Shown here in pieces: positions 36,910 through 48,573 of a stretch of DNA of 64,000 nt (positions within the stretch are counted from its first letter, which is position 1; each line of letters opens with the position of its first letter). The position numbers and the translations under genes are program-made. The stretch covers positions 1-64,000 of the forward strand of contig NZ_RDQG01000025.1 in assembly GCF_003697815.1 (NCBI RefSeq), given 5' to 3'. A model generated the notes under the pieces. That model searched no databases, was not told the DNA's origin, and saw only the letters and a program-made list of their open reading frames with translations. The DNA comes from Halalkalicoccus subterraneus. Lineage in GTDB: Archaea > Halobacteriota > Halobacteria > Halobacteriales > Halalkalicoccaceae.

Positions 36910-37644
36910 TCAGTCGTTCTGAGCGACCGTTTTGGCCTCCTGGAGGCGCTTTTCGGCCTCGTCGCGGTCCTCCGGGTAGCCCACGTCGATCCGCCAGCCG
37001 TCCAGCCCGATCGCGTCGATCGTTCTCCCGGAGCGGATGAGGAGGTCGATCGCCTCGCTGATCTCGTATTCGCCCCGGTTCGAGGGCTGAACGAGCTGGC
37101 AGGCGTGGAAGATCGCCGGCGAAAAGGTGTAAAAGCCGGTCATCACCAGATTGGTCGGCGGGTCCTCGGGCTTCTCGATCACTTCCGTGATCTCCCCGAA
37201 GTCGTTCGTATCACAGACCCCGTATCGCGAGGCCTCTTCGTACGGGACTTCCTCGACGAGGAACGCCGCGTCGGTGCGCTCTTCTTGCTGTCGGCGGACG
37301 ACGTCGGCGAGGTTCGCGTTGAAGATGTTGTCACCGAGCATCAGCATGAAGTCGTCGTCGATGTGCTCTTCGACGCTCAACAGGGCGTGGGCCAGCCCCA
37401 GCTGCTCGCGCTGGTGTGTGTAGGTGATCGGGATGTCACGATAGGAGTCACCGAAGTGCTCGATGATGTGTTCTTTCATGTACCCGACCACGACCACGAA
37501 CTCCTCGGCGCCGAGTTCGGCCAACCGGTCGAAACAGTGGGCGACCAACGGTTTGCCGTCGACCTCGACCATCGCTTTGGGTTTGTCCTCGGTCAGCGGT
37601 CGCAGTCTCGTCCCCTTTCCTGCAGCCAGCACTACGGCTTTCAT
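36910..37644 (-). CDS. aglF: Sugar-1-phosphate nucleotidylyltransferase, AglF-like
   Basis: 244 residues from ATG 37644, positioned by a TATA box. The nucleotide-binding loop is VVLAAGKGTRLRPLTEDKPK, the metal site MLMLGDNIFNAN, and a sugar-site segment reads EVPYEEASRYGV. Its size and sequence type match haloarchaeal AglF (glucose-1-phosphate uridylyltransferase) rather than RmlA. The product UDP-glucose would feed the UDP-glucose dehydrogenase at 60192, giving UDP-glucuronate for N-glycans or surface polysaccharides. It probably belongs functionally to the glycan island starting at 42.4 kb. Confidence 0.85.
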   Translation of the reverse strand: MKAVVLAAGKGTRLRPLTEDKPKAMVEVDGKPLVAHCFDRLAELGAEEFVVVVGYMKEHIIEHFGDSYRDIPITYTHQREQLGLAHALLSVEEHIDDDFMLMLGDNIFNANLADVVRRQQEERTDAAFLVEEVPYEEASRYGVCDTNDFGEITEVIEKPEDPPTNLVMTGFYTFSPAIFHACQLVQPSNRGEYEISEAIDLLIRSGRTIDAIGLDGWRIDVGYPEDRDEAEKRLQEAKTVAQND

Positions 37645-37667
37645 GATATTGACAGTCGCTATCCAAT

Positions 37668-37679
37668 CTTTAAATAATT
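37668..37679 (-). promoter_or_regulatory. TATA box of the aglF gene
   Basis: Minus-strand AATTATTTAAAG is centred about 28 nt upstream of ATG 37644, one of the best TATA-like sites in the window. Confidence 0.55.
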
Positions 37680-37756
37680 TGTGTCTCAATAGATTGTACG
37701 AACTGCCGGAAGGTTATTTTAGACGGAGCGTCCCCCGCGAACAGCGGCCGGTACTC

Positions 37757-39064
37757 CTATTCCCAGTTGTAGAGGGCGTCCCGGAAGATCGCCTCGACGT
37801 CCTCCTTTTCGACGGGGCGGGGATTGCAGCGAAGCAGGCGCTGTTGGGTTTCGACGGTCTGGGTCGCGAGCCAGTCGAGATCGCTCTCGTCGATTCCGGC
37901 CAGCTCTGCGAGGCCACTCGGGAGGACGTTCAGGTCGCGCTGGAGCCGAACGTACTCTCCCTTCAGACGGTCGGCGGCCTCACGAGTGTTCAGCCCCGTG
38001 GTGTCGACGCCGAACATGCGCGCGAGTTCGACGAAACGCTCGGGGTCGCTCGCGGCGTTATAATCAAGGGTACTCGCCGGGGTGAGCACCGCGATCGTCT
38101 CGCCGTGATAGGTGTGATATCGGTTACCGACCGGGTAGGCCATCGCGTGACAGAGGCTCGCGCCGGCGGTAAGTCCGGAGATCGCGCCCATCAGCGCGCC
38201 CTGAAGCATGTTCTCGCGAGCCTCGAGGTCGTCGCCGTTGTGGACCGCCCGGCGAACATTGGACGAGAGGAGTTCGATCGCCTTCTCGCTGAACATCTCC
38301 GTGACGGGAGTACGTCCGGCATAGACGGGCCGGCTCGTGGGGTCTTCGGCCCGAAGCAGGCTGTCGTACGAGTGGGTCGTGTAGCCCTCGATGGCGTGGC
38401 CAAGCGCGTCCATCGCGGTTTTGGCGGTCTGCTCGGGCGGGAGCGTCGTCGTCAGCGTCGGATCCAGCACGGCGGCGTCGGCCCGGATGTGATCGCTCGA
38501 GATCCCCTCCTTGACCTCCTTTTCCTCGACGGAGAAGATGGCGACGGGCGAGATCTCCGCGCCCGTGCCCGCCGTGGTCGGCATGAGCACCAGTGGCGGG
38601 CCTGACTCGGTGATCGACTCGCCGCTACCCGTGGGCTCGGCGATGTAATCGAGCACCTCGCCGCCGTTCGCGATTACCGTCCGGGCGGCTTTCGCGGTGT
38701 CCATGCAACTACCCCCGCCGAGGCCGACGTAGAAGTCATAGCCCGCCTCGCCGCGCTCGTCGCGGATGAAGGAGAGACACTCGTCGACGTCCTCGGTCGA
38801 GGGCTCGCGCGCGGAGCCGTCGTAGACGTCGACCTCGTAGGCGTCGAGTTGCTCGCGCACTCGGTCGGCGTGACCCAACGAAACGAGGGTCTCGTCGGTG
38901 ACGAGTAGGCCGTGAGCGCCGGGTTCGACGCCGAGATCGGCGAACTGGAAGTCGAGTTCCTCGACGGCGTCGCGTCCGAACCGGATTCGAGGCATCTCGA
39001 GTTCCCAGACCGTCTCGGGGGTCTGGGTGTGGTCGGGCGCCGAGACGGAACGTTCGTAGCCCAC
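37757..39064 (-). CDS. Iron-containing alcohol dehydrogenase, HOT/4-hydroxybutyrate dehydrogenase-like
   Basis: 435 residues from GTG 39064, directly adjacent to the stop of the lactonase-like gene (39065). The NAD-binding GLGGGSCMDTAKA, the metal-ligand segments MDALGHAIEGY and LCHAMAYPVG, and the late RYHTYHGE are type III ADH features. The length and the ~24-residue N-terminal lead resemble hydroxyacid-oxoacid transhydrogenases. These oxidise 4-hydroxybutyrate to succinic semialdehyde. The zero-gap pairing with a lactonase suggests a gamma-butyrolactone/4-hydroxybutyrate pathway (inference). Confidence 0.9.
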   Translation of the reverse strand: MGYERSVSAPDHTQTPETVWELEMPRIRFGRDAVEELDFQFADLGVEPGAHGLLVTDETLVSLGHADRVREQLDAYEVDVYDGSAREPSTEDVDECLSFIRDERGEAGYDFYVGLGGGSCMDTAKAARTVIANGGEVLDYIAEPTGSGESITESGPPLVLMPTTAGTGAEISPVAIFSVEEKEVKEGISSDHIRADAAVLDPTLTTTLPPEQTAKTAMDALGHAIEGYTTHSYDSLLRAEDPTSRPVYAGRTPVTEMFSEKAIELLSSNVRRAVHNGDDLEARENMLQGALMGAISGLTAGASLCHAMAYPVGNRYHTYHGETIAVLTPASTLDYNAASDPERFVELARMFGVDTTGLNTREAADRLKGEYVRLQRDLNVLPSGLAELAGIDESDLDWLATQTVETQQRLLRCNPRPVEKEDVEAIFRDALYNWE

Positions 39065-39862
39065 TCAGTCCCACCCCGAGAGCGACTCGTACTGCTCGGA
39101 ATCGTGCCCGTAGACGACCTCGGCGTCGTGGCGTCGTTCGAGCTCCTTGATCTCCTGGAGGGTCTCGAACCAGTGGCGGTGGCTCCAGAGCAGACCCGCC
39201 CCGAGGGGGACTCCGTCCTCGTAGTTTTCTGCTCTATATATCTCGTCGCCGGCGAATATCAGCGACCGGTCCTCGAGGTGGATCATCGTTCCAGTCAGAC
39301 CGGGCGTGTGACCCGGGAAACGGATGAATTCGACGTCCTCGAAGTGCGTCTCGTGGTCCCGATGGAGCACCTCCCAGTTGAGGTCGTGGTCGAAGTCCTC
39401 GAGGATGTAGGCGGCGCTTCCCTGCTCGGTCTTCGCGCTGTAGTAGGCGAACTTGATCTCCTCTTCGTGGACGAACACCGGCACGTCCGTCCCGTCGAAG
39501 TGGTGAAGACCGCCGGCGTGATCCAGATGGAGATGCGTCTGGAAGACGTAGTCGATGTCGTCGAGTCCATAGCCGGCGCTCTCTAGATCGCTTTCGAGGT
39601 CGTGTTCGTCGGCGTCGTGGGGGTAAAAGGCCTGTTTCAGCCCCTCGGGCCAGTGGCCGTCGAGGGCGTCCTCGTGGTTGCCGGTGTCCCAGAGGATCGT
39701 CCCCTCAGGGTGGTCGATCACGAGGTTGTACACGGGAATCTCCGTGTACTCGGTCTCGGGGTTCGGCTCGTCATGGGTGCCGAGCGTGTGGCCCTCGAGC
39801 ATGTAGTTCTGATCGCACAGCAACCCGCCCCGATGGATCACGTCGATGGTTGCATCAACCAT
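39065..39862 (-). CDS. MBL-fold lactonase-like protein (AHL/gamma-butyrolactone lactonase family)
   Basis: 265 residues. The lactonase-type metallo site is QTHLHLDHAGGLHHF (about residues 107-121), and GHTPGLTGTM, IFAGDEIYRA and VYGHDSEQ carry further ligands. The N-terminal region with LVIDHPEGTILWDTG matches the N-acyl-homoserine lactonase (AttM/BlcC) group. The reaction is likely opening of a gamma-lactone ring. The iron ADH starts at the next base after the stop, as one operon. In Agrobacterium the equivalent neighbours BlcC and BlcB work in gamma-butyrolactone breakdown; whether quorum signals are the target here is open. Confidence 0.85.
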   Translation of the reverse strand: MVDATIDVIHRGGLLCDQNYMLEGHTLGTHDEPNPETEYTEIPVYNLVIDHPEGTILWDTGNHEDALDGHWPEGLKQAFYPHDADEHDLESDLESAGYGLDDIDYVFQTHLHLDHAGGLHHFDGTDVPVFVHEEEIKFAYYSAKTEQGSAAYILEDFDHDLNWEVLHRDHETHFEDVEFIRFPGHTPGLTGTMIHLEDRSLIFAGDEIYRAENYEDGVPLGAGLLWSHRHWFETLQEIKELERRHDAEVVYGHDSEQYESLSGWD

Positions 39863-39932: not shown

Positions 39933-40976
39933 TCAGGTGGCGATGTGGAGACGAAACCCGTCGCCATCGTCGGGCTCTGCGATCGAGAGTTCCCAGCCAT
40001 GTGCGTCCGCGATGGCCGATAGAACCGTCGCGGCGCTATCGTCGTTATCGGGATCAACGAACGCCCGTCGAAGCGTCCGATACTCGTCGGCGGCTACGTC
40101 GGGGCCGTCGACCGTGATCAGAACGCCCGACTCGTTCGCGTCGACACGGATGGATGATTCCGCTCCCAGATGTGTGATCGTGTGCTCGAAGAGGACCTCG
40201 AAAAACAGCGCCAGCAGCGACGGATCGGCGCGGACATGCCGGTCGGCTTCGACCGTCAGCGACGCCGGTTCGGAGCCGACTGCCTCCCACGCGTCCGTCG
40301 TGGCGTCCCGGATCGACACCTCGACGAGCGACCTAAGCCCGCGCCCGGCGCGAGCGACGGCGACGAGTTCGTCGACCAACGTACTCGCGCGCCCGATCGC
40401 GCTGTCGACCCGGTCGAGATGCTCGTCGTTTCCGGTCTCACGCCCGAGGATCGCGTACTCGCGGGCCACCATGAGCGGGTTTCGGAGGTCGTGCGAGAGG
40501 GTTGCTCTGACCGATTCGAGACAGCGGTTTTTCGTCCGCAGGCGCTCGCCGGCGTCGCGGTCCGGGTCGGATGGACTCGTTGTGCAGGGCGCCGTTTCGT
40601 GGGCGCTCGCCTCACTCCGATACTCCACTGCCCGATCCAACAGCGACACGACGTGGCCCGGTGCGGTCCGAAGAACCGCCTTCTCGATCCAGCCGTCGAC
40701 CAGGGGATCGAGCGACGTCGGAACGCTGGCGACGCTATCGAGCGCGTCGACGACCCCGAGTACCGGGAGTTCCGGTCGTTCGGTTCGTAGTCGACGAACG
40801 ACTGTCCCCTCGTTCGATTCGAGCGTCGCCGCGTCGTAGAGCACCGTCTCGAACGGCTCGTCGGCCACTCGTGGGTCGTCGAGTCGCTCCGCTGTCGAGA
40901 GGTGTGCGCCGGTTCGCTTGAGCGCGTCGACGACCTCGTCGGCGAGTGGCTCCGTCGTGAGATACCGGATACGCAT
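39933..40976 (-). CDS. Sensor histidine kinase
   Basis: 347 residues, no membrane helix. The first ~115 residues look like a receiver-like or atypical sensor domain (VLYDAATLES, TERPELPVLGVVDALD). The dimerisation/phosphoacceptor motif is LSHDLRNPL with His162. The ATPase domain follows (residues ~215-345) but its N and G boxes are degenerate: the N-box region FFEVLFEHTITH lacks the canonical asparagines. It is probably a soluble haloarchaeal kinase of uncertain activity, divergent from a response regulator 129 bp away. Confidence 0.85.
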   Translation of the reverse strand: MRIRYLTTEPLADEVVDALKRTGAHLSTAERLDDPRVADEPFETVLYDAATLESNEGTVVRRLRTERPELPVLGVVDALDSVASVPTSLDPLVDGWIEKAVLRTAPGHVVSLLDRAVEYRSEASAHETAPCTTSPSDPDRDAGERLRTKNRCLESVRATLSHDLRNPLMVAREYAILGRETGNDEHLDRVDSAIGRASTLVDELVAVARAGRGLRSLVEVSIRDATTDAWEAVGSEPASLTVEADRHVRADPSLLALFFEVLFEHTITHLGAESSIRVDANESGVLITVDGPDVAADEYRTLRRAFVDPDNDDSAATVLSAIADAHGWELSIAEPDDGDGFRLHIAT

Positions 40977-41105
40977 CGATCATCGAGGAGATGGGAACGA
41001 ACACATGTAGTTATCACCACACCAATACGTCGAGCGGGACGGTTAGGGTCAACCTTTTTCTGTTTGAATCATTTGCTTTTTATCACGTTACGTCGTAACT
41101 GGACT

Positions 41106-41510
41106 ATGACTGATACGGATTCGGCGCGGATCCACGTTCTCTGCGTCGACGACGAGCTCGACAGCGCCGATCTAACGGCGCTGTGTCTCGAGCGAATCGA
41201 CGACCGATTCGTCGTCGAGACGGCACTGAGCGCCGAAGCGGGCTACGAGTACCTCGAGGAAACCGGGGTCGATTGCGTCGTGAGCGACTACAAGATGCCC
41301 GACGTGGACGGGATCACCTTCTTCGAGCTGGTCCAGGACGAGTACCCTGAACTACCGTTTATCCTCTTTACGGGCCGGGGATCGGCGAGCGTCGCCGACG
41401 ACGCGCGCTCGCGCGGCGTGACCGAGTACCTCGAAAAGGACACGGAAGACCGATATCGAGTGCTGGCCGACCAGATCAGGAGCGCGGTCGAGAAACACCG
41501 CTCCTCGTAG
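41106..41510 (+). CDS. Single-domain response regulator
   Basis: 134 residues from ATG 41106, with TATA CTTTTTATC at 41076-41084 giving leaderless spacing. Receiver residues are the acidic pair Asp15/Asp16, the phosphoacceptor Asp61 in VVSDYKMPDVDG, the Thr in LFTGRGS and the Lys in EYLEKDTE. There is no output domain, so it would act by protein contact. It is divergent from the histidine kinase and convergent with a Bat-type regulator (10 bp). Confidence 0.92.
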   Translation: MTDTDSARIHVLCVDDELDSADLTALCLERIDDRFVVETALSAEAGYEYLEETGVDCVVSDYKMPDVDGITFFELVQDEYPELPFILFTGRGSASVADDARSRGVTEYLEKDTEDRYRVLADQIRSAVEKHRSS

Positions 41511-41520
41511 GAAGGGGTCG

Positions 41521-42174
41521 TTACCGGAGCGGTTGCTCTTGGGCGATTACCGCCTGCTTGATGAGCGCCTCGACGCCGCGTCTGATCCGCTGGGAAAGCG
41601 CGCTGTCGCTGATCCCTAGCTCGTCGGCGAGCGCGGCCTGGCTGATCCGGCGCGGGATCTGGAAGTACCCCGAACGGTAGGCTGTCGTGAGCGTGTCGCG
41701 TTGGACCGGCGAGAGCGACGCCGTTGGCTCGTCGATCGGGGAGTGGTGGATCCGGCGGAGCGTCACGGGAGTCCCCGATTCGGTGAGCGCGACGTTGAAC
41801 CGTGAGAGCTCTTCATGCGTCGAAAACCGAAGGCGAAAATCCCAACTTTCGGCGAGGCCCTGTGCGGCGAGGATCGTCGCGTCGGCCTCCAGGAGCGCGT
41901 CGACGAGTTCGTTCTCGGCCGACGACCACTGGATCTCGAACAGCGTTTCCGATTCGACCGTCATGACGACGCTTACCCGATCGATCCGCGGATGGTCCCC
42001 GAGCGCCGAGCGGATCTCCTCGGAATCGCTCGTTTCGATCCACAACAGCGGCATAACGGACTCCCGAAGCGGGACGACGCCTTCGAGTTCGATCCCCACC
42101 TCGGGAAACGACTGGAGAACGCTTCCGACCGGAAGCGACGCGGCCGGCAAGGTGATATCGGCGATTACGGTCAT
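41521..42174 (-). CDS. Bat-type HTH_10 transcriptional regulator
   Basis: 217 residues. Residues ~1-150 form the Bat-type ligand-binding half (LPAASLPVGSVLQSFPEVGI, LLWIETSDSEE, FRLRFSTHEELSRF). The C-terminal ~60 residues are the HTH_10 domain of bacterioopsin activator proteins (QRDTLTTAYRSGYFQIPRRI, ADELGISDSALSQRIRRG). It is a cytoplasmic DNA-binding regulator. Its upstream region (42175-42399) is shared with the GT2 gene that opens the glycan island and contains two identical palindromes. A second protein of the same design lies at 61824. Confidence 0.9.
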   Translation of the reverse strand: MTVIADITLPAASLPVGSVLQSFPEVGIELEGVVPLRESVMPLLWIETSDSEEIRSALGDHPRIDRVSVVMTVESETLFEIQWSSAENELVDALLEADATILAAQGLAESWDFRLRFSTHEELSRFNVALTESGTPVTLRRIHHSPIDEPTASLSPVQRDTLTTAYRSGYFQIPRRISQAALADELGISDSALSQRIRRGVEALIKQAVIAQEQPLR

Positions 42175-42399: not shown

Positions 42400-43713
42400 A
42401 TGCAGTCATCACCGAGGAGGGGAGGAGCAGTAGAGGAGCCGGAGTGGGGCGAAGACGGGTCACCGATCGGTTTGATCGCGACACACACCAACAAATCGGA
42501 GCTCATACAGGCGATCCTGTCGGCAAAGCGGCACGGAAGCGACGTGGCAGTTACCCACGTCGAGTCCGACGAACCGGAGGGGGTCGAAATCGCGCGGATG
42601 ATGGGTGCACGGATCCTACGTAGCGCCGCGTTCGACGGGAAGCCCGAAGCGGGCAACGGGACGGCGCCGAAGGCGACCGCGACCAAGGACGTCCCGCCGG
42701 TAACCGAGTTCGTCGATCCGGCGACGATCACCGACCAACAGGGGACTGTCGAACCCGCCCGGTTGGAAAAACCGGAACCCGTCTTCGAGATGGGCGAGGA
42801 CGCCGAACAGTCGACGGTCGTCGTGGGAATTCCGGCGTACAACGAGGCAGGCTCCATTGCGAACGTCGTCGGAACGGCCGCCGAGTACGGCGATAGCGTC
42901 CTCGTCGTCGACGATGGAAGTCGAGACGAGACCACGAGAGAGGCCGGCAAAGCCGGAGCGACGGTCATCGAACACGAGTACAACAAGGGGTACGGCACCG
43001 CGCTCAAGACGCTCTTTCGAGCGGCCGACCGGAAGGGTGCCGATCACCTCGTGATCCTCGACGCCGACGCCCAGCACGACTCACGGGATATCCCCCGGCT
43101 CGTCGCGAAACAGCGCGAAACCGGCGCCGACATCGTCATCGGAAGTCGGTTTATCGACGGGGCGACCACCGAGTTCCCGCTGTACCGTCGAGTCGGGCTG
43201 TCGATCGTCAACGCGCTCACCAACCTCAGCATGGGGACCGTCCGGCCGAGTGCACGCATCACCGATACGCAAAGCGGCTTTCGAGCCTACAACCGACGAG
43301 CCATCGCAGGATTGGCCGATGACGACACCATCGGGACGCAGATGGCCGCCAGCACGGACATCCTCTATCACGCCCACAAGAACGGATACGAGGTCGAAGA
43401 AGTCGGAATATCGGTGCGCTACGACGTCGAGAACGCGAACAGCGCCGATCCGATTTCACACGGGTATGACCTAGTGAACAACATCACAACGACCGTACAG
43501 AACACCCATCCACTTATCAGTCTGGGTATGCCGGGATTCGTCGGTGTGCTGTCAGGGGTCAGTGGTACTTACTGGCTCATCTCCGAGTACCTCACCACGG
43601 GATCGCTCTCGTTTCTCGTTACGACCCTATCCGCCCTGTTCTTGCTTGGCGGTTTCTTCTTCTGTATCGCTGCGGTCATCCTCCATACGATACGGATCTC
43701 TAAGGCGAGATAG
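42400..43713 (+). CDS. Family 2 glycosyltransferase with extra N-terminal domain and two C-terminal helices
   Basis: 437 residues. Residues ~20-75 form a separate small domain (GLIATHTNKSELIQAILSAK, ARMMGARIL) joined by a ~60-residue linker. The GT2 domain begins near 140 (TVVVGIPAYNEAGSIANV) with DDGSRDET and the DxD-type ILDADAQHDSRDI. Two hydrophobic helices end the protein, as in polyprenyl-phosphate sugar transferases. A likely role is to charge a dolichyl phosphate with a sugar for surface glycans. The gene opens the 42.4-61.5 kb island. Confidence 0.88.
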   Translation: MQSSPRRGGAVEEPEWGEDGSPIGLIATHTNKSELIQAILSAKRHGSDVAVTHVESDEPEGVEIARMMGARILRSAAFDGKPEAGNGTAPKATATKDVPPVTEFVDPATITDQQGTVEPARLEKPEPVFEMGEDAEQSTVVVGIPAYNEAGSIANVVGTAAEYGDSVLVVDDGSRDETTREAGKAGATVIEHEYNKGYGTALKTLFRAADRKGADHLVILDADAQHDSRDIPRLVAKQRETGADIVIGSRFIDGATTEFPLYRRVGLSIVNALTNLSMGTVRPSARITDTQSGFRAYNRRAIAGLADDDTIGTQMAASTDILYHAHKNGYEVEEVGISVRYDVENANSADPISHGYDLVNNITTTVQNTHPLISLGMPGFVGVLSGVSGTYWLISEYLTTGSLSFLVTTLSALFLLGGFFFCIAAVILHTIRISKAR

Positions 43714-43865
43714 GTCCGATCCAAAGGCCCCCTCCGTTCCGTCCGCCAGTCGTAACCTGGTTGCAGTGATCATGGCCCGATACGCTATTCTACCGGTTAA
43801 GTGACTGCTGAAGCGGATCGCTAGTAAACGATACTAATATCACGGTCGTTCACAGTTCGTTTCAT

Positions 43866-44783
43866 ATGGGTGGTAAGAAACGGAGTGGCTCATCCGATGG
43901 ACCCGGAAACGTCCTGTCGTTCGATCTCGAACACTGGCATTCGGCGACCCTGCTAACGGACGAACTAACCGACGCCAAGGATCGTATCGAGACGTCAGTC
44001 GAGATCGTTCTCGATATACTCGCAGAACACGAAACGACAGCGACGTTCTTCGTCGTCGGCGAGATAGCTAGGGAGTATCCTGCGTTGATCACTCGAATCG
44101 CCGATGACGGCCACGAAATAGCGTCTCACGGACACACTCATACTCCGCTGTTCGAACTTACGCAGGCGTCGTTCACCGAGGAGCTCGATGCGAGTGCCGA
44201 AGCGATCGAGTCGGTGACCGGCCACCGTCCTCTCGGGTTTCGGGCACCGAACTTCTCGGTGACACCGCGAACCCAATGGGCGTTCGATGCGCTTCTCGAA
44301 ACGGGGTATCGGTATGACTCCAGCGTGTTCCCGGTCAAGACCCCGATGTATGGGGTCGGAAACGCACCGGTTCACCCGTACTGGGTCGATCGTAACTCCC
44401 CCTTCGAGGACAGTCGATCGGTCACTGCCGATGACCTGCTCGAATTTCCACCCGCCGTGTTTCATCCTCGGTTCCGTGTTCCGGTCGCTGGAGGGTTTTA
44501 CGGTCGGATCCTTCCGACGTGGGTGATATCAAGAGGGATCAGGAACCTCAACCGTCGAGGGATTCCCGCGACGCTCTACTTCCATCCGTGGGAATTCAAC
44601 CCCGACGTACAAACCGCCGAACCGACCTTCCACAAGCGCTTCATCAGCTTCCACAATCTCGATCAGACTCGCGAGACGCTCGAAACGTTGCTCTCCTCAC
44701 ACGAGTTCGGGACGTGTCACCAGTTACTCGAGAGATATACAGGGAATGCAGGGCCGGTACCGTCCCCTCGGAAGGAGAGGTGA
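43866..44783 (+). CDS. Polysaccharide deacetylase, PEP-CTERM/EPS-locus type
   Basis: 305 residues, with TATA-like ATACTAATATC at 43831-43841 giving leaderless spacing. NodB-fold motifs: LSFDLEHWHS (catalytic Asp), GHEIASHGHTHTPLF (metal His pair), GFRAPNFSVTP and TLYFHPWEF. The C-terminal half resembles the extension (DUF3473-like) found in deacetylases of bacterial exopolysaccharide loci. The enzyme would remove N-acetyl groups from a sugar polymer or lipid-linked sugar. No signal peptide is visible, which suggests action at the cytoplasmic side. Confidence 0.87.
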   Translation: MGGKKRSGSSDGPGNVLSFDLEHWHSATLLTDELTDAKDRIETSVEIVLDILAEHETTATFFVVGEIAREYPALITRIADDGHEIASHGHTHTPLFELTQASFTEELDASAEAIESVTGHRPLGFRAPNFSVTPRTQWAFDALLETGYRYDSSVFPVKTPMYGVGNAPVHPYWVDRNSPFEDSRSVTADDLLEFPPAVFHPRFRVPVAGGFYGRILPTWVISRGIRNLNRRGIPATLYFHPWEFNPDVQTAEPTFHKRFISFHNLDQTRETLETLLSSHEFGTCHQLLERYTGNAGPVPSPRKER

Positions 44784-44959
44784 CGGGTAACAAACGGTCA
44801 CGGCTCGTACGCAGAAAGGAGGCACCGACTGCTGCGTCACTGACAACAGTTCACCATCCACCGGACGGCAGCGGCCAGCGATACAGCAGCTAGTCGAGAC
44901 GGATGGTGAAAACGGGGGGACGACCACTCGAATGTAAGTCAACCGACACAGTTACATCG

Positions 44960-45763
44960 ATGATGGCCCTGAGAACCGGTATGTTCGGGGGAGAGAAGGG
45001 TCGACGGTTGGTGGATCGAGCGTTTCGATCCACACTCAAGGGTCGTTACCGCCCCACTGGGGTTCGTTGTCCGATCGTCCTCTATCATGGTATCGGCGAA
45101 TCGGGCGGTCCGTGGACAGTCACGCCGGCACGGTTTCGCCGACAGATCGAGTGGCTCTCCGAAACGTTCGACCTCCTGACTGTGAGCGAGGCCATCGAGC
45201 AGTGGAAACAGGGCTCGCTTCCGCCCGATCCGGCCGTCGTGACCTTCGACGATGGGTTCCAATCGACGATCGAGACGGCATTGCCGATCCTCGAGAGTCA
45301 CGGCGTCGAGGCGACTCACTACGTCGTCCCGGGACTACTGGGCGAGCGGTTCGAAGGATCGCGGGTCATGGACCGCGATAGTGTCATCGATCTCAGCGAG
45401 TCCGGTCACGAGATCGGAGCACACACCATGACTCATCCGGATCTGACGACGGTCGGCCGGGAAATCGCCCGGCGCGAGATCGTCGAATCACGGGAGTCCA
45501 TCGAAGCGATTACGGGCGACAACCCGCGCAGTTTCGCCTATCCCTACGGTGCATTCGACGACGACATAGCCCAGTTGGTCCGGGAGGCGGGCTACGAGAG
45601 TGCGACCACGGTGATCGGCTCGGACGTCGTCGATTTCGCTGCACCGATGTCCCTTCCGCGGATCACCATTATGCGTGAACACGACCGTCAGACGAGTAGG
45701 GACATGATCGACGGGGATCGGCGATGGCAGCACCTCATTCGGGACGTGGTCCCGATCCGATAA
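44960..45763 (+). CDS. Polysaccharide deacetylase family protein
   Basis: 267 residues from ATG 44960; an in-frame ATG at 44903 would add 19 less convincing residues. The catalytic core has VTFDDGFQSTIE, the metal site GHEIGAHTMTHPDL and RSFAYPYGAFDDD. A conserved entry strand is CPIVLYHGIGE. This is the second, shorter deacetylase of the island and of a different subtype (PgdA-like) from the preceding gene, so two different steps are likely. There is no signal peptide. Confidence 0.85.
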   Translation: MMALRTGMFGGEKGRRLVDRAFRSTLKGRYRPTGVRCPIVLYHGIGESGGPWTVTPARFRRQIEWLSETFDLLTVSEAIEQWKQGSLPPDPAVVTFDDGFQSTIETALPILESHGVEATHYVVPGLLGERFEGSRVMDRDSVIDLSESGHEIGAHTMTHPDLTTVGREIARREIVESRESIEAITGDNPRSFAYPYGAFDDDIAQLVREAGYESATTVIGSDVVDFAAPMSLPRITIMREHDRQTSRDMIDGDRRWQHLIRDVVPIR

Positions 45764-45905
45764 CCGGTGGTGTGAATCGATTCGAACCGACGAAGTCGTC
45801 CCGCTAATTACTGCGGTTTGATCTCGGTTCGGATCGTTTCCGGTCAGAACACTCGTCAGCGACGGTTCGGGACCCTTATGTAGGACAGGCTATATCTATA
45901 GTCCA

Positions 45906-47006
45906 ATGGGGAGTGCTATTGAGACCGCGAATCCACAGTCCTTCGATCGACCGGGGGTTTTCGATCGGATCGCGGAGTTCTACGAGTATCAGGGGATCCC
46001 GTCCGCTACAGAGGTCTACATGGTCCTCGATACGGACGGCTACAACACGTACGCGTTTCGCCCGGAATCTCGGGCGATCGAGTGGCTCGTCGATCGGCTC
46101 GGCGGTGGCGGCTGGAAGAGTCGCCTCGGGACCACGATACTCGAGACCACTGCCGCTGTTCCAGGGCTCCTGCCGTTCGTTCCTCTGATCCGGTCGGAAT
46201 ACGCCACCGTCGCCGCCGAGAACCCGTTCGACGTGGCGGTCGTCGGTGACCGAATCACGTTATTGCAGTTGGACAACCGACACGTATCTACGATCGCCAT
46301 CGACGATCCGGACAAGCTCCGAAACGAGATCGAACACCGACAACGGCTCCCTGATTCGATCAACACGCCACCGATTATCGAACACGATAGCGAGTATCCC
46401 TATATCATCGAGCGGTATCTCAATGGGCGGGAACTCATCGATCCAGTCGAGGAGTGGAAGGCGCTGTTTGATGCGCTCAACCAGCTTACCGCCCTCTACG
46501 AGAACGACCGACACCGCGTCGCGACGACTGACGTCGTTCGAGAACTCGAAGGAGCGCTGGCGACCGAGGACGAGACGAACGGAACTACGCGTGCAGGGCT
46601 ACAGCTCCTCGACGACCTCGACTTGCCGTCGTCACTCTATCGGGGCCCGATCCACGGCGACCTCCACGCCAGAAACCTCTTCATCAATGACGCGGTGTAC
46701 ATCCTTGATTGGGAGGACGTACGGATGGATTACCTCCTCGACGATCTCTTCAGACCGTTCGTCATCCACCAGTACGACATCCCTCTCCACCAGTTGTTCG
46801 TTCAGATGATACACGGGCGGGGAGAGGGCGGCCGCATCATGGCCGACTACGCCCGGGAGATCGGGCCGATCGCCTACGGCGACTCGGAGACGTATTCGGG
46901 GCTTCCGCTGTTTTACCTCCTCTCCCTGCTCGCTGACGGCGGCGAGAACGGATCGCTTCGCCCGCCGTGTCGTGAACTCCTTTCGGGGATCGTTTCGTCG
47001 TACTGA
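45906..47006 (+). CDS. APH-fold phosphotransferase
   Basis: 366 residues. The C-terminal half has the aminoglycoside-phosphotransferase catalytic loop GPIHGDLHARNLFI and the metal-binding VYILDWEDVRMDYL. The N-terminal lobe is divergent (ENPFDVAVVGDRITLLQLDN) with ERYLNGRELI as a hinge. Members phosphorylate small molecules or sugars. In a polysaccharide locus a sugar or lipid-linked sugar is the likeliest substrate, not an antibiotic (inference). TATA-like TTATGTAGG precedes it at about 45876. Confidence 0.8.
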   Translation: MGSAIETANPQSFDRPGVFDRIAEFYEYQGIPSATEVYMVLDTDGYNTYAFRPESRAIEWLVDRLGGGGWKSRLGTTILETTAAVPGLLPFVPLIRSEYATVAAENPFDVAVVGDRITLLQLDNRHVSTIAIDDPDKLRNEIEHRQRLPDSINTPPIIEHDSEYPYIIERYLNGRELIDPVEEWKALFDALNQLTALYENDRHRVATTDVVRELEGALATEDETNGTTRAGLQLLDDLDLPSSLYRGPIHGDLHARNLFINDAVYILDWEDVRMDYLLDDLFRPFVIHQYDIPLHQLFVQMIHGRGEGGRIMADYAREIGPIAYGDSETYSGLPLFYLLSLLADGGENGSLRPPCRELLSGIVSSY

Positions 47007-47145
47007 TGATCACCGCCTCGAAGGCATCCGTATCGGTCGCAAGCGATCAGTGAGTAGTTGCATACTCTCGTATCGATAAAATCACTCCGTACACACCTGT
47101 AATAGAACTGAGAATATATATCGCAGGACGTAGTAGATCAGACGA

Positions 47146-48573
47146 ATGGATCTGTCCCGTTCAGCATTGAAACTCTTTCTCGCGAAAGGCGGCAACGCGG
47201 TCGTTTTCTTCGCCGGGATCACAGTCTTCGCCCGTGAATTAGGGGCAAGCCAGATAGGGATCTTCTTCCTGTTTCAAACGGTACTCGGACTGCTGACGAT
47301 CGTTGCCGACGGTGGGATCCGCGGCGCGCTCGAGAAACGACTGAGCGAGGGGCAACGGGCAGACAGAATGCTAGCGACCGCGATTACGATCAAACTCGTT
47401 ACCGTCTCCGGAGCCGTGGGAGTGATCCTTCTGGCCCGGCCATACCTCAACCAGTATCTCGGCGGCGAATACACGGTCTTCCTCGTCGTTGCACTCGTCG
47501 TTCAGGAGTTCGCGGACCTGTTCATTCAGGCTGTGCGCGGCGAACTCCGTGTTGGGGAAACCGCTATCATCGAGTTCGCCCGCGAGACGGTATGGGTTAC
47601 GAGTGGACTGGTGTTGGTGTCGGCTGGATACGGGGTTGTCGGATTGATCTATGGGCTCATCCTGGGTTCAGCGACGGCCGCCTGTTGGGCGTTCTTCAAA
47701 CTGGAAACGAACGTCGGTCGACCAGCCGAACTATCGGCGTGGTCGCTGTACGACTACGCGAAGTACTACTTCCTCTCGTCAGTGAGTGGCAAGGTCTATC
47801 AATGGATGGACGTAGCGATCATCGGGCTGTTTCTGACCTACGCGGACGTCGGAGCCTACGAGGTAGCCTGGGAGGTGACGTTGTTGGTGTTGTTAGTCAG
47901 TAAGACGCTCTCAGTCACACTGTTCCCGCAGATGAGCCAGTGGAGCGCCGAAGCCGCGACCTCTCGGATCGAGGCCGTTGTCCCCAACGCGCTCGGAGTC
48001 GCGCTGTTCCTCTCGATCCCCGCGTTCGTCGGGGTGTTCGTGCTGAACTACGAGATCCTCGCTGTAGTCTTCGGTTCGGAGTACACCATCGCGGCGGGCG
48101 TCCTCGTGGTGTTGATGGTCGAGAAGGTATTTCAATCGGCCAATGACGTTCTGGGGAGCACGCTTCGGGGCATCGATCGCGTGGATCTGGTCGCACGGGC
48201 GGTCGTCGTAACGATCGCGATAAATCTCGTCCTCAACGTCGTCCTCGTTCTTTCCATCGGACTACTGGGAGCGGCGATCGCGACGACGAGTGCAGCCATA
48301 GTTCAGACGCTTCTCAATGCACGATATCTCTCACGGAACATCACGCTTCGAATACCCTATCATCTGATCGTGTGGTGTTTTGTCGGTGCGATTGGAATGG
48401 GACTGATCGTCTCAGGGGTACAGATGATCCTCCCGTTCGAGGGATTCGTCTTACTGGCGATCTGTATCGGCGTCGGTGTCGTGAGTTACCTGCTGTTTTC
48501 GGTCATTATACCGTCCCTCCGCAGGGAGGTTATCGTACCGGGTGCACGAATGCTCGTCTCGATATTCGGCTAG
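47146..48573 (+). CDS. Oligosaccharide flippase, MATE/Wzx-like (MOP superfamily)
   Basis: 475 residues, about 14 hydrophobic helices over the whole length, the topology of PST/Wzx exporters. It starts with KLFLAKGGNAVVFFAGITVF; a central segment LTYADVGAYEVAWEVTLLVL and FVLNYEILAVVFGSEY are typical. It has a good TATA box (AATATATATC, 47113-47122) at leaderless distance. It would flip a lipid-linked oligosaccharide across the membrane, comparable to AglR or Agl15 in Haloferax. It lies between the kinase and a large membrane protein of the island. Confidence 0.9.
   Translation: MDLSRSALKLFLAKGGNAVVFFAGITVFARELGASQIGIFFLFQTVLGLLTIVADGGIRGALEKRLSEGQRADRMLATAITIKLVTVSGAVGVILLARPYLNQYLGGEYTVFLVVALVVQEFADLFIQAVRGELRVGETAIIEFARETVWVTSGLVLVSAGYGVVGLIYGLILGSATAACWAFFKLETNVGRPAELSAWSLYDYAKYYFLSSVSGKVYQWMDVAIIGLFLTYADVGAYEVAWEVTLLVLLVSKTLSVTLFPQMSQWSAEAATSRIEAVVPNALGVALFLSIPAFVGVFVLNYEILAVVFGSEYTIAAGVLVVLMVEKVFQSANDVLGSTLRGIDRVDLVARAVVVTIAINLVLNVVLVLSIGLLGAAIATTSAAIVQTLLNARYLSRNITLRIPYHLIVWCFVGAIGMGLIVSGVQMILPFEGFVLLAICIGVGVVSYLLFSVIIPSLRREVIVPGARMLVSIFG

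Follow-up and report, generated by a model that had tools for sequence, protein, structure and literature searches.

Which function could require a lactonase and an iron-containing alcohol dehydrogenase to be encoded without a single intervening base in a haloarchaeon? The question is raised by a locus of Halalkalicoccus subterraneus that lies in a stretch of 64,000 nucleotides at the start of contig NZ_RDQG01000025.1, hereafter referred to as the window. A previous interpretation, drawn from the DNA letters and called here the sequence-only reading, had proposed that the two proteins take part in lactone breakdown, by analogy with the Blc pathway of Agrobacterium, or in the quenching of a lactone signal.

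Organisation and conservation of the gene pair

Both genes are located on the minus strand. The first encodes an AiiA-like lactonase of the metallo-beta-lactamase fold (39065..39862, 265 aa, ATG start; Pfam PF00753), and the second a HOT-like iron-containing alcohol dehydrogenase (37757..39064, 435 aa, GTG start; Pfam PF00465 and PF25137), with a gap of zero and in a common reading frame. Read from the sequence, the junction (39062..39067, minus strand) consists of the lactonase TGA at 39067-39065 and, directly after it, the dehydrogenase GTG at 39064-39062, just as the sequence-only reading had described it. The GTG start is supported by the N-terminus of the dehydrogenase, in which residues Y3, R5, S6, S8, A9, P16, E17, V19 and W20 are invariant in the 18 sequences aligned. 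A histidine-kinase-like gene (39933-40976) is found 70 bases upstream of the pair, and a nucleotidyltransferase gene (36910-37689) downstream. In particular, the stretch just upstream (39933-42174) encodes the histidine-kinase-domain protein, a response-regulator-like ORF on the opposite strand and a BAT/HTH_10 regulator. The nucleotidyltransferase, together with a family 2 glycosyltransferase, a polysaccharide-deacetylase-like ORF and a flippase-like ORF (36910-37689 and 42400-48573), suggests that the pair is surrounded by a surface polysaccharide region.

To assess conservation, 293 genomes belonging to the order were sampled. The dehydrogenase clade is represented in 54 of them, and 43 of these 54 carry the lactonase gene immediately upstream in the same orientation, at a distance of 2-20 bases between matched ends, the junctions showing zero gap, short overlaps or short gaps. 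The genera involved include Halalkalicoccus (the closest named relative of the dehydrogenase, with 88% identity, belongs to Halalkalicoccus paucihalophilus), Haladaptatus, Natronorubrum, Natronococcus, Halorubrum, Natrialba and Halogeometricum, among others, and the pair is carried by plasmids in Haladaptatus, Halobacterium and Natronococcus. The flanking genes vary by lineage, with a ribosomal-protein region in Natrialbaceae and SerA in Halorubrum, for example, and therefore it is the pair itself that represents the conserved unit. In addition, the distance matrices of the two proteins are correlated (0.85, a value reached in none of 2000 permutations), a co-divergence to be taken as support for an interaction and not as proof of it, since shared genome descent contributes to the correlation. 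The gene pair is old, and the pairing is far beyond chance.

The association is not universal. In ten of the 54 genomes the dehydrogenase has no adjoining lactonase, and in some of these it is part of catabolic clusters with a thiolase or the E1 component of a 2-oxoacid dehydrogenase; three other genomes encode a close lactonase and no such dehydrogenase. At one locus (L152:4025-5907, contig C34 of genome G155) both genes are in pieces, possibly as a pseudogene pair or through an assembly error. Neither the TctA-like gene that precedes the pair in Natrialbaceae nor the SerA gene of Halorubrum was accepted as a functional partner, both being judged lineage-specific chromosomal neighbours; at locus L141, TctA and the dehydrogenase are kept and the lactonase is missing. 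Some relatives have transporters of short-chain acids or solutes upstream, which speaks for a catabolic unit: Natronococcus occultus has one for short-chain fatty acids and Halolamina an SSF symporter, and in Halococcus dombrowskii the lactonase adjoins a lactate permease. An acyl-CoA ligase lineage with members 70-82% identical accompanies the lactonase and the dehydrogenase in Halorientalis, Halospeciosus and Halegenticoccus. This ligase lineage recurs with the lactonase family at loci L077, L099, L106 and L039, the first three of which also contain the HOT-like dehydrogenase. Finally, in genome G069 (L150:2891-4885) a lactonase 70% identical to that of the window is placed directly behind an alcohol dehydrogenase of the zinc type, not of the iron type, as if one dehydrogenase type might have been swapped for the other; an amidohydrolase and a DUF59-like gene occupy the opposite strand.

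Features of the two enzymes

The lactonase is a member of the metallo-beta-lactamase superfamily (Lactamase_B, PF00753, E 2e-23), and its best homologue of solved structure is AaL (6CGY, 146 bits, E 1.4e-41), with GcL also among the best. The metal ligands H110, H112, D114 and H115 (HxHxDH), H185, D206 and H253, as well as the catalytic tyrosine Y209, three residues past the bridging D206, are invariant in the 43 pair members. Among NCBIfam equivalogs it is nearest to the AhlS, AttM and AiiA lactonases; all scores fall under the respective cut-off (AhlS, 162 bits for a cut-off of 475; AttM/BlcC, 107 for 390; AiiA, 102 for 375) and, as they do so by a wide margin, the substrate cannot be read from the sequence. 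AaL, known from structures 6CGY, 6CGZ and 6CH0, hydrolyses gamma-butyrolactone with a kcat/KM of 1.4e5, prefers C4-homoserine lactone about tenfold and accepts delta-lactones too (PMC6062542). The predicted fold and reaction type of the window enzyme are thus well supported. The H. subterraneus genome also encodes a second member of this lactonase family that stands alone (57% identity; contig C22, 50189-50980; locus L136:8178-8981, minus strand), with neither a dehydrogenase nor an acyl-CoA ligase adjoining it; such lone relatives are common in the order. Within the limits of the papers searchable, no published haloarchaeal AiiA-like lactonase was found.

The dehydrogenase matches Fe-ADH (E 2e-38) and ADH_Fe_C (E 4e-36) in Pfam, contains all four metal ligands (D219, H223, H306 and H320), which are invariant in the 43 pair members, and displays the NAD motif GGGS at residues 116-119. 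Two insertions are common to all hydroxyacid-oxoacid transhydrogenase (HOT) proteins (PMC5125639). As applied here for HOT (cd08190), insertion 1 separates helices 5 and 6 and is about 19 residues long, and insertion 2, of 13 residues, separates helices 8 and 9. When aligned with HOT, BlcB and FucO, the window enzyme shows insertion 1 at residues ~233-252 (~38309..38368, minus strand), with the sequence YDSLLRAEDPTSRPVYAGRT. This element is found in all pair-clade members and HOTs aligned and is absent in BlcB and FucO; its residues R238, R245 and Y248 are invariant in 43 sequences, and its Arg/Pro/Tyr/Gly pattern is common to the window enzyme and the HOTs. Insertion 2, in the same alignment, is absent from the window clade. 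Both insertions occur in the HOT-annotated proteins of Deinococcus and Mycobacterium, neither of them in BlcB or FucO. Judged by this alignment, the dehydrogenase is classed here as HOT-like and not as a HOT, one defining insertion being present and the other missing. The phrase "HOT-like iron ADH" of the sequence-only reading is in this sense right, and a strict HOT assignment does not hold.

In a tree of 22 rows the pair clade is supported at 100/100 and is separate from BlcB, from both of these HOTs and from a second clade of haloarchaeal enzymes; the tree is small and midpoint-rooted, and its deeper relations are unsure because of long branches. A tyrosine corresponding to human Tyr334 replaces His267 of FucO; it was weighed as evidence of HOT identity and discarded, since BlcB shares it and it does not discriminate. 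The second haloarchaeal clade (L127, L154 and L158), annotated as HOT and 40-45% identical, lacks insertion 2 as well; its genes have sugar-acid and histidinol-dehydrogenase-like neighbours. Relatives of the window dehydrogenase are likewise annotated publicly as "hydroxyacid-oxoacid transhydrogenase", a name that automatic annotation seems to give loosely to enzymes without a defining insertion. Structure predictions of the two proteins were poor (mean pLDDT 62 and 52, from shallow alignments), and the models were left unused.

A predicted catabolic route and its alternatives

Ring opening by AiiA-like lactonases and alcohol oxidation by iron alcohol dehydrogenases are established knowledge, and both reactions are predicted here on the basis of family membership and intact active sites. 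On balance, we consider it probable that the pair forms a co-translated catabolic unit, which would convert gamma-butyrolactone, or a close gamma-lactone, to 4-hydroxybutyrate and then to succinate. Specifically, the lactonase, given its family and active site, would hydrolyse a small gamma-lactone, likeliest gamma-butyrolactone, to the corresponding 4-hydroxy acid, that is, 4-hydroxybutyrate. The HOT-like dehydrogenase would oxidise the terminal hydroxyl to yield succinate semialdehyde, with the electrons passing to NAD+ or directly to 2-oxoglutarate as in HOT. Lastly, a succinate-semialdehyde dehydrogenase encoded elsewhere in the genome would provide succinate for the citric acid cycle. The choice of this specific substrate is based on the succinate-semialdehyde dehydrogenase partner and on the Blc analogy.

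Evidence for such a partner comes from two relatives. On plasmid pSTJ001 of Halobacterium hubeiense, the genes follow one another in the order lactonase, dehydrogenase, succinate-semialdehyde dehydrogenase, and a matching three-gene set, with a third gene 87% identical, is found in Halolamina salifodinae. By gene content, these two loci are a complete Blc-like set. The third protein best matches succinic-semialdehyde dehydrogenase models (NF006915, 604 bits, under the cut-off of 730). In most pair loci this gene is not adjoining. The sequence-only reading had remarked that a BlcA-like dehydrogenase is not in the window, and indeed none was found beside the pair or among the window genes examined. 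It had also advised a search for a succinic semialdehyde dehydrogenase in the rest of the genome, which returned a homologue with 68% identity on contig C47, with no obvious lactone cluster around it; all matches in the genome lie on contigs other than that of the pair. The proposal of lactone breakdown on the Blc model is consequently strengthened by the conserved pair, the third gene in two relatives and the homologue in the genome itself; lactone breakdown is likely, and gamma-butyrolactone is a plausible substrate.

It is known that Haloferax mediterranei, when fed gamma-butyrolactone, incorporates 4-hydroxybutyrate units into its polymer (PMC3880725), and therefore a haloarchaeon can open the gamma-butyrolactone ring in culture. 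The H. subterraneus genome encodes a PHA synthase as well as FAD/Fe-S homologues of D-2-hydroxyglutarate dehydrogenase; a lactate permease adjoins at least one of these homologues, which could instead act on lactate; in view of these genes, other fates of 4-hydroxybutyrate are possible. A more specific version of the route, in which an independently assembled pathway would include an NAD-free alcohol step, with hydride transfer to 2-oxoglutarate and reoxidation of D-2-hydroxyglutarate by a respiratory FAD/Fe-S dehydrogenase, is regarded as doubtful.

Among the alternatives, the one that survives best is that the chemistry is alike and the lactone is a different one. The substrate could be another gamma- or delta-lactone or a sugar-acid lactone (2-hydroxyglutarate lactone or a gamma-lactone with substituents, for example). 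Aldehyde dehydrogenases of various kinds, or acyl-CoA ligases, could then catalyse the third step. This reading, which we hold to be possible at clearly less than even chance, is in line with the broad range of AiiA-like lactonases, exemplified by the delta-lactones taken by AaL, and with the diversity of substrates in the dehydrogenase family, including the sister haloarchaeal HOT-annotated clade found among sugar-acid genes. It would also accommodate the acyl-CoA ligase at the Halorientalis, Halospeciosus and Halegenticoccus loci, which the gamma-butyrolactone route does not need and which counts against that route. However, the only aldehyde dehydrogenase found right behind the pair is nearest to succinate-semialdehyde dehydrogenase models (NF006915, below cut-off).

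It appears unlikely that the pair has a signalling role, in which N-acyl homoserine lactones would be destroyed by the lactonase and the opened product degraded by the dehydrogenase, assisted by the ligase at those loci that have one, as in the bacterial qsd operon. In favour of such a role, the closest lactonases of known function act in quorum quenching, the linked acyl-CoA ligase is reminiscent of the combination of QsdA and QsdC (PMC6262395), and Natronococcus occultus, a species that figures in the homoserine-lactone literature, has the pair on a plasmid. Nevertheless, quenching alone needs neither an alcohol dehydrogenase nor a succinate-semialdehyde dehydrogenase, and a study of haloarchaeal signals reported no measurable homoserine lactone and took either a modified compound or a diketopiperazine to be responsible for the activity (PMC10223598). 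A search for LuxI-type synthases (PF00765) in 98 genomes gave no match and gave none in the control genomes either, so that it does not demonstrate absence. For the quenching role put forward by the sequence-only reading, we found nothing positive beyond the known activity of the lactonase family. As to the possibility that the two genes are chance or historical neighbours of unrelated functions, as the genomes holding one gene without the other might suggest, it is very improbable and strongly disfavoured by the tight spacing and the co-divergence over many genera in varied surroundings, plasmids included.

If the gamma-butyrolactone route is correct, haloarchaea own a dedicated gamma-lactone catabolic module, spread over genera and onto plasmids, and the pair becomes a candidate answer for a Haloferax-like conversion of gamma-butyrolactone to 4-hydroxybutyrate, of relevance to bioplastic production. 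Moreover, haloarchaeal annotations as "N-acyl homoserine lactonase" would then probably denote carbon metabolism and not signal quenching. The conserved lactonase-dehydrogenase pair of haloarchaea is apparently undescribed in the literature searched.

Comparison with known lactone-degrading systems

The window lactonase resembles AaL, GcL and AhlS in its HxHxDH motif, further metal ligands and catalytic tyrosine, and aligns with them over nearly the full length, but it is a distant match, under the family cut-offs, and sits in a catabolic gene pair. As for HOT (ADHFE1, cd08190), the dehydrogenase has in common with it the iron-ADH family, the four metal ligands, insertion 1 and the tyrosine at the position of human Tyr334, whereas it lacks the 13-residue insertion 2 and falls outside the clade of the Deinococcus and Mycobacterium HOTs.

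At the level of gene organisation, two bacterial systems can be compared. In the qsd operon of Rhodococcus, the lactonase QsdA is combined with the acyl-CoA ligase QsdC, a combination also found in some haloarchaeal loci; by contrast, the window and most pair loci have a dehydrogenase and no adjoining ligase. The loci that combine lactonase and ligase therefore keep both a broader lactone catabolism and homoserine-lactone catabolism alive as rivals.

The closest parallel to the overall chemistry proposed here is offered by BlcABC (attKLM) of Agrobacterium, which serves gamma-butyrolactone catabolism (PMC5924552). Both systems combine a metallo-lactonase and an iron alcohol dehydrogenase in one co-directional unit, to which a succinate-semialdehyde dehydrogenase is added in two relatives of the window, and both are frequently located on plasmids. 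On the other hand, the haloarchaeal gene order is reversed, with the lactonase first, and in the window the succinate-semialdehyde dehydrogenase does not adjoin the pair. No IclR-type BlcR was found among the four neighbour genes scanned, which include the histidine kinase and the BAT/HTH_10 regulator. Identity to the Blc proteins amounts to 29% for the lactonase, 32% for the dehydrogenase and 37% for the succinate-semialdehyde dehydrogenase of the H. subterraneus genome. The sequence-only reading had likened the dehydrogenase to BlcB: an iron alcohol dehydrogenase does lie next to the lactonase, but at 32% identity it is a remote relative and not a BlcB orthologue, and it belongs to a different branch, with the HOT-type insertion 1 that is missing in BlcB. 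From these sequence comparisons, the haloarchaeal module was probably assembled independently of blcABC.
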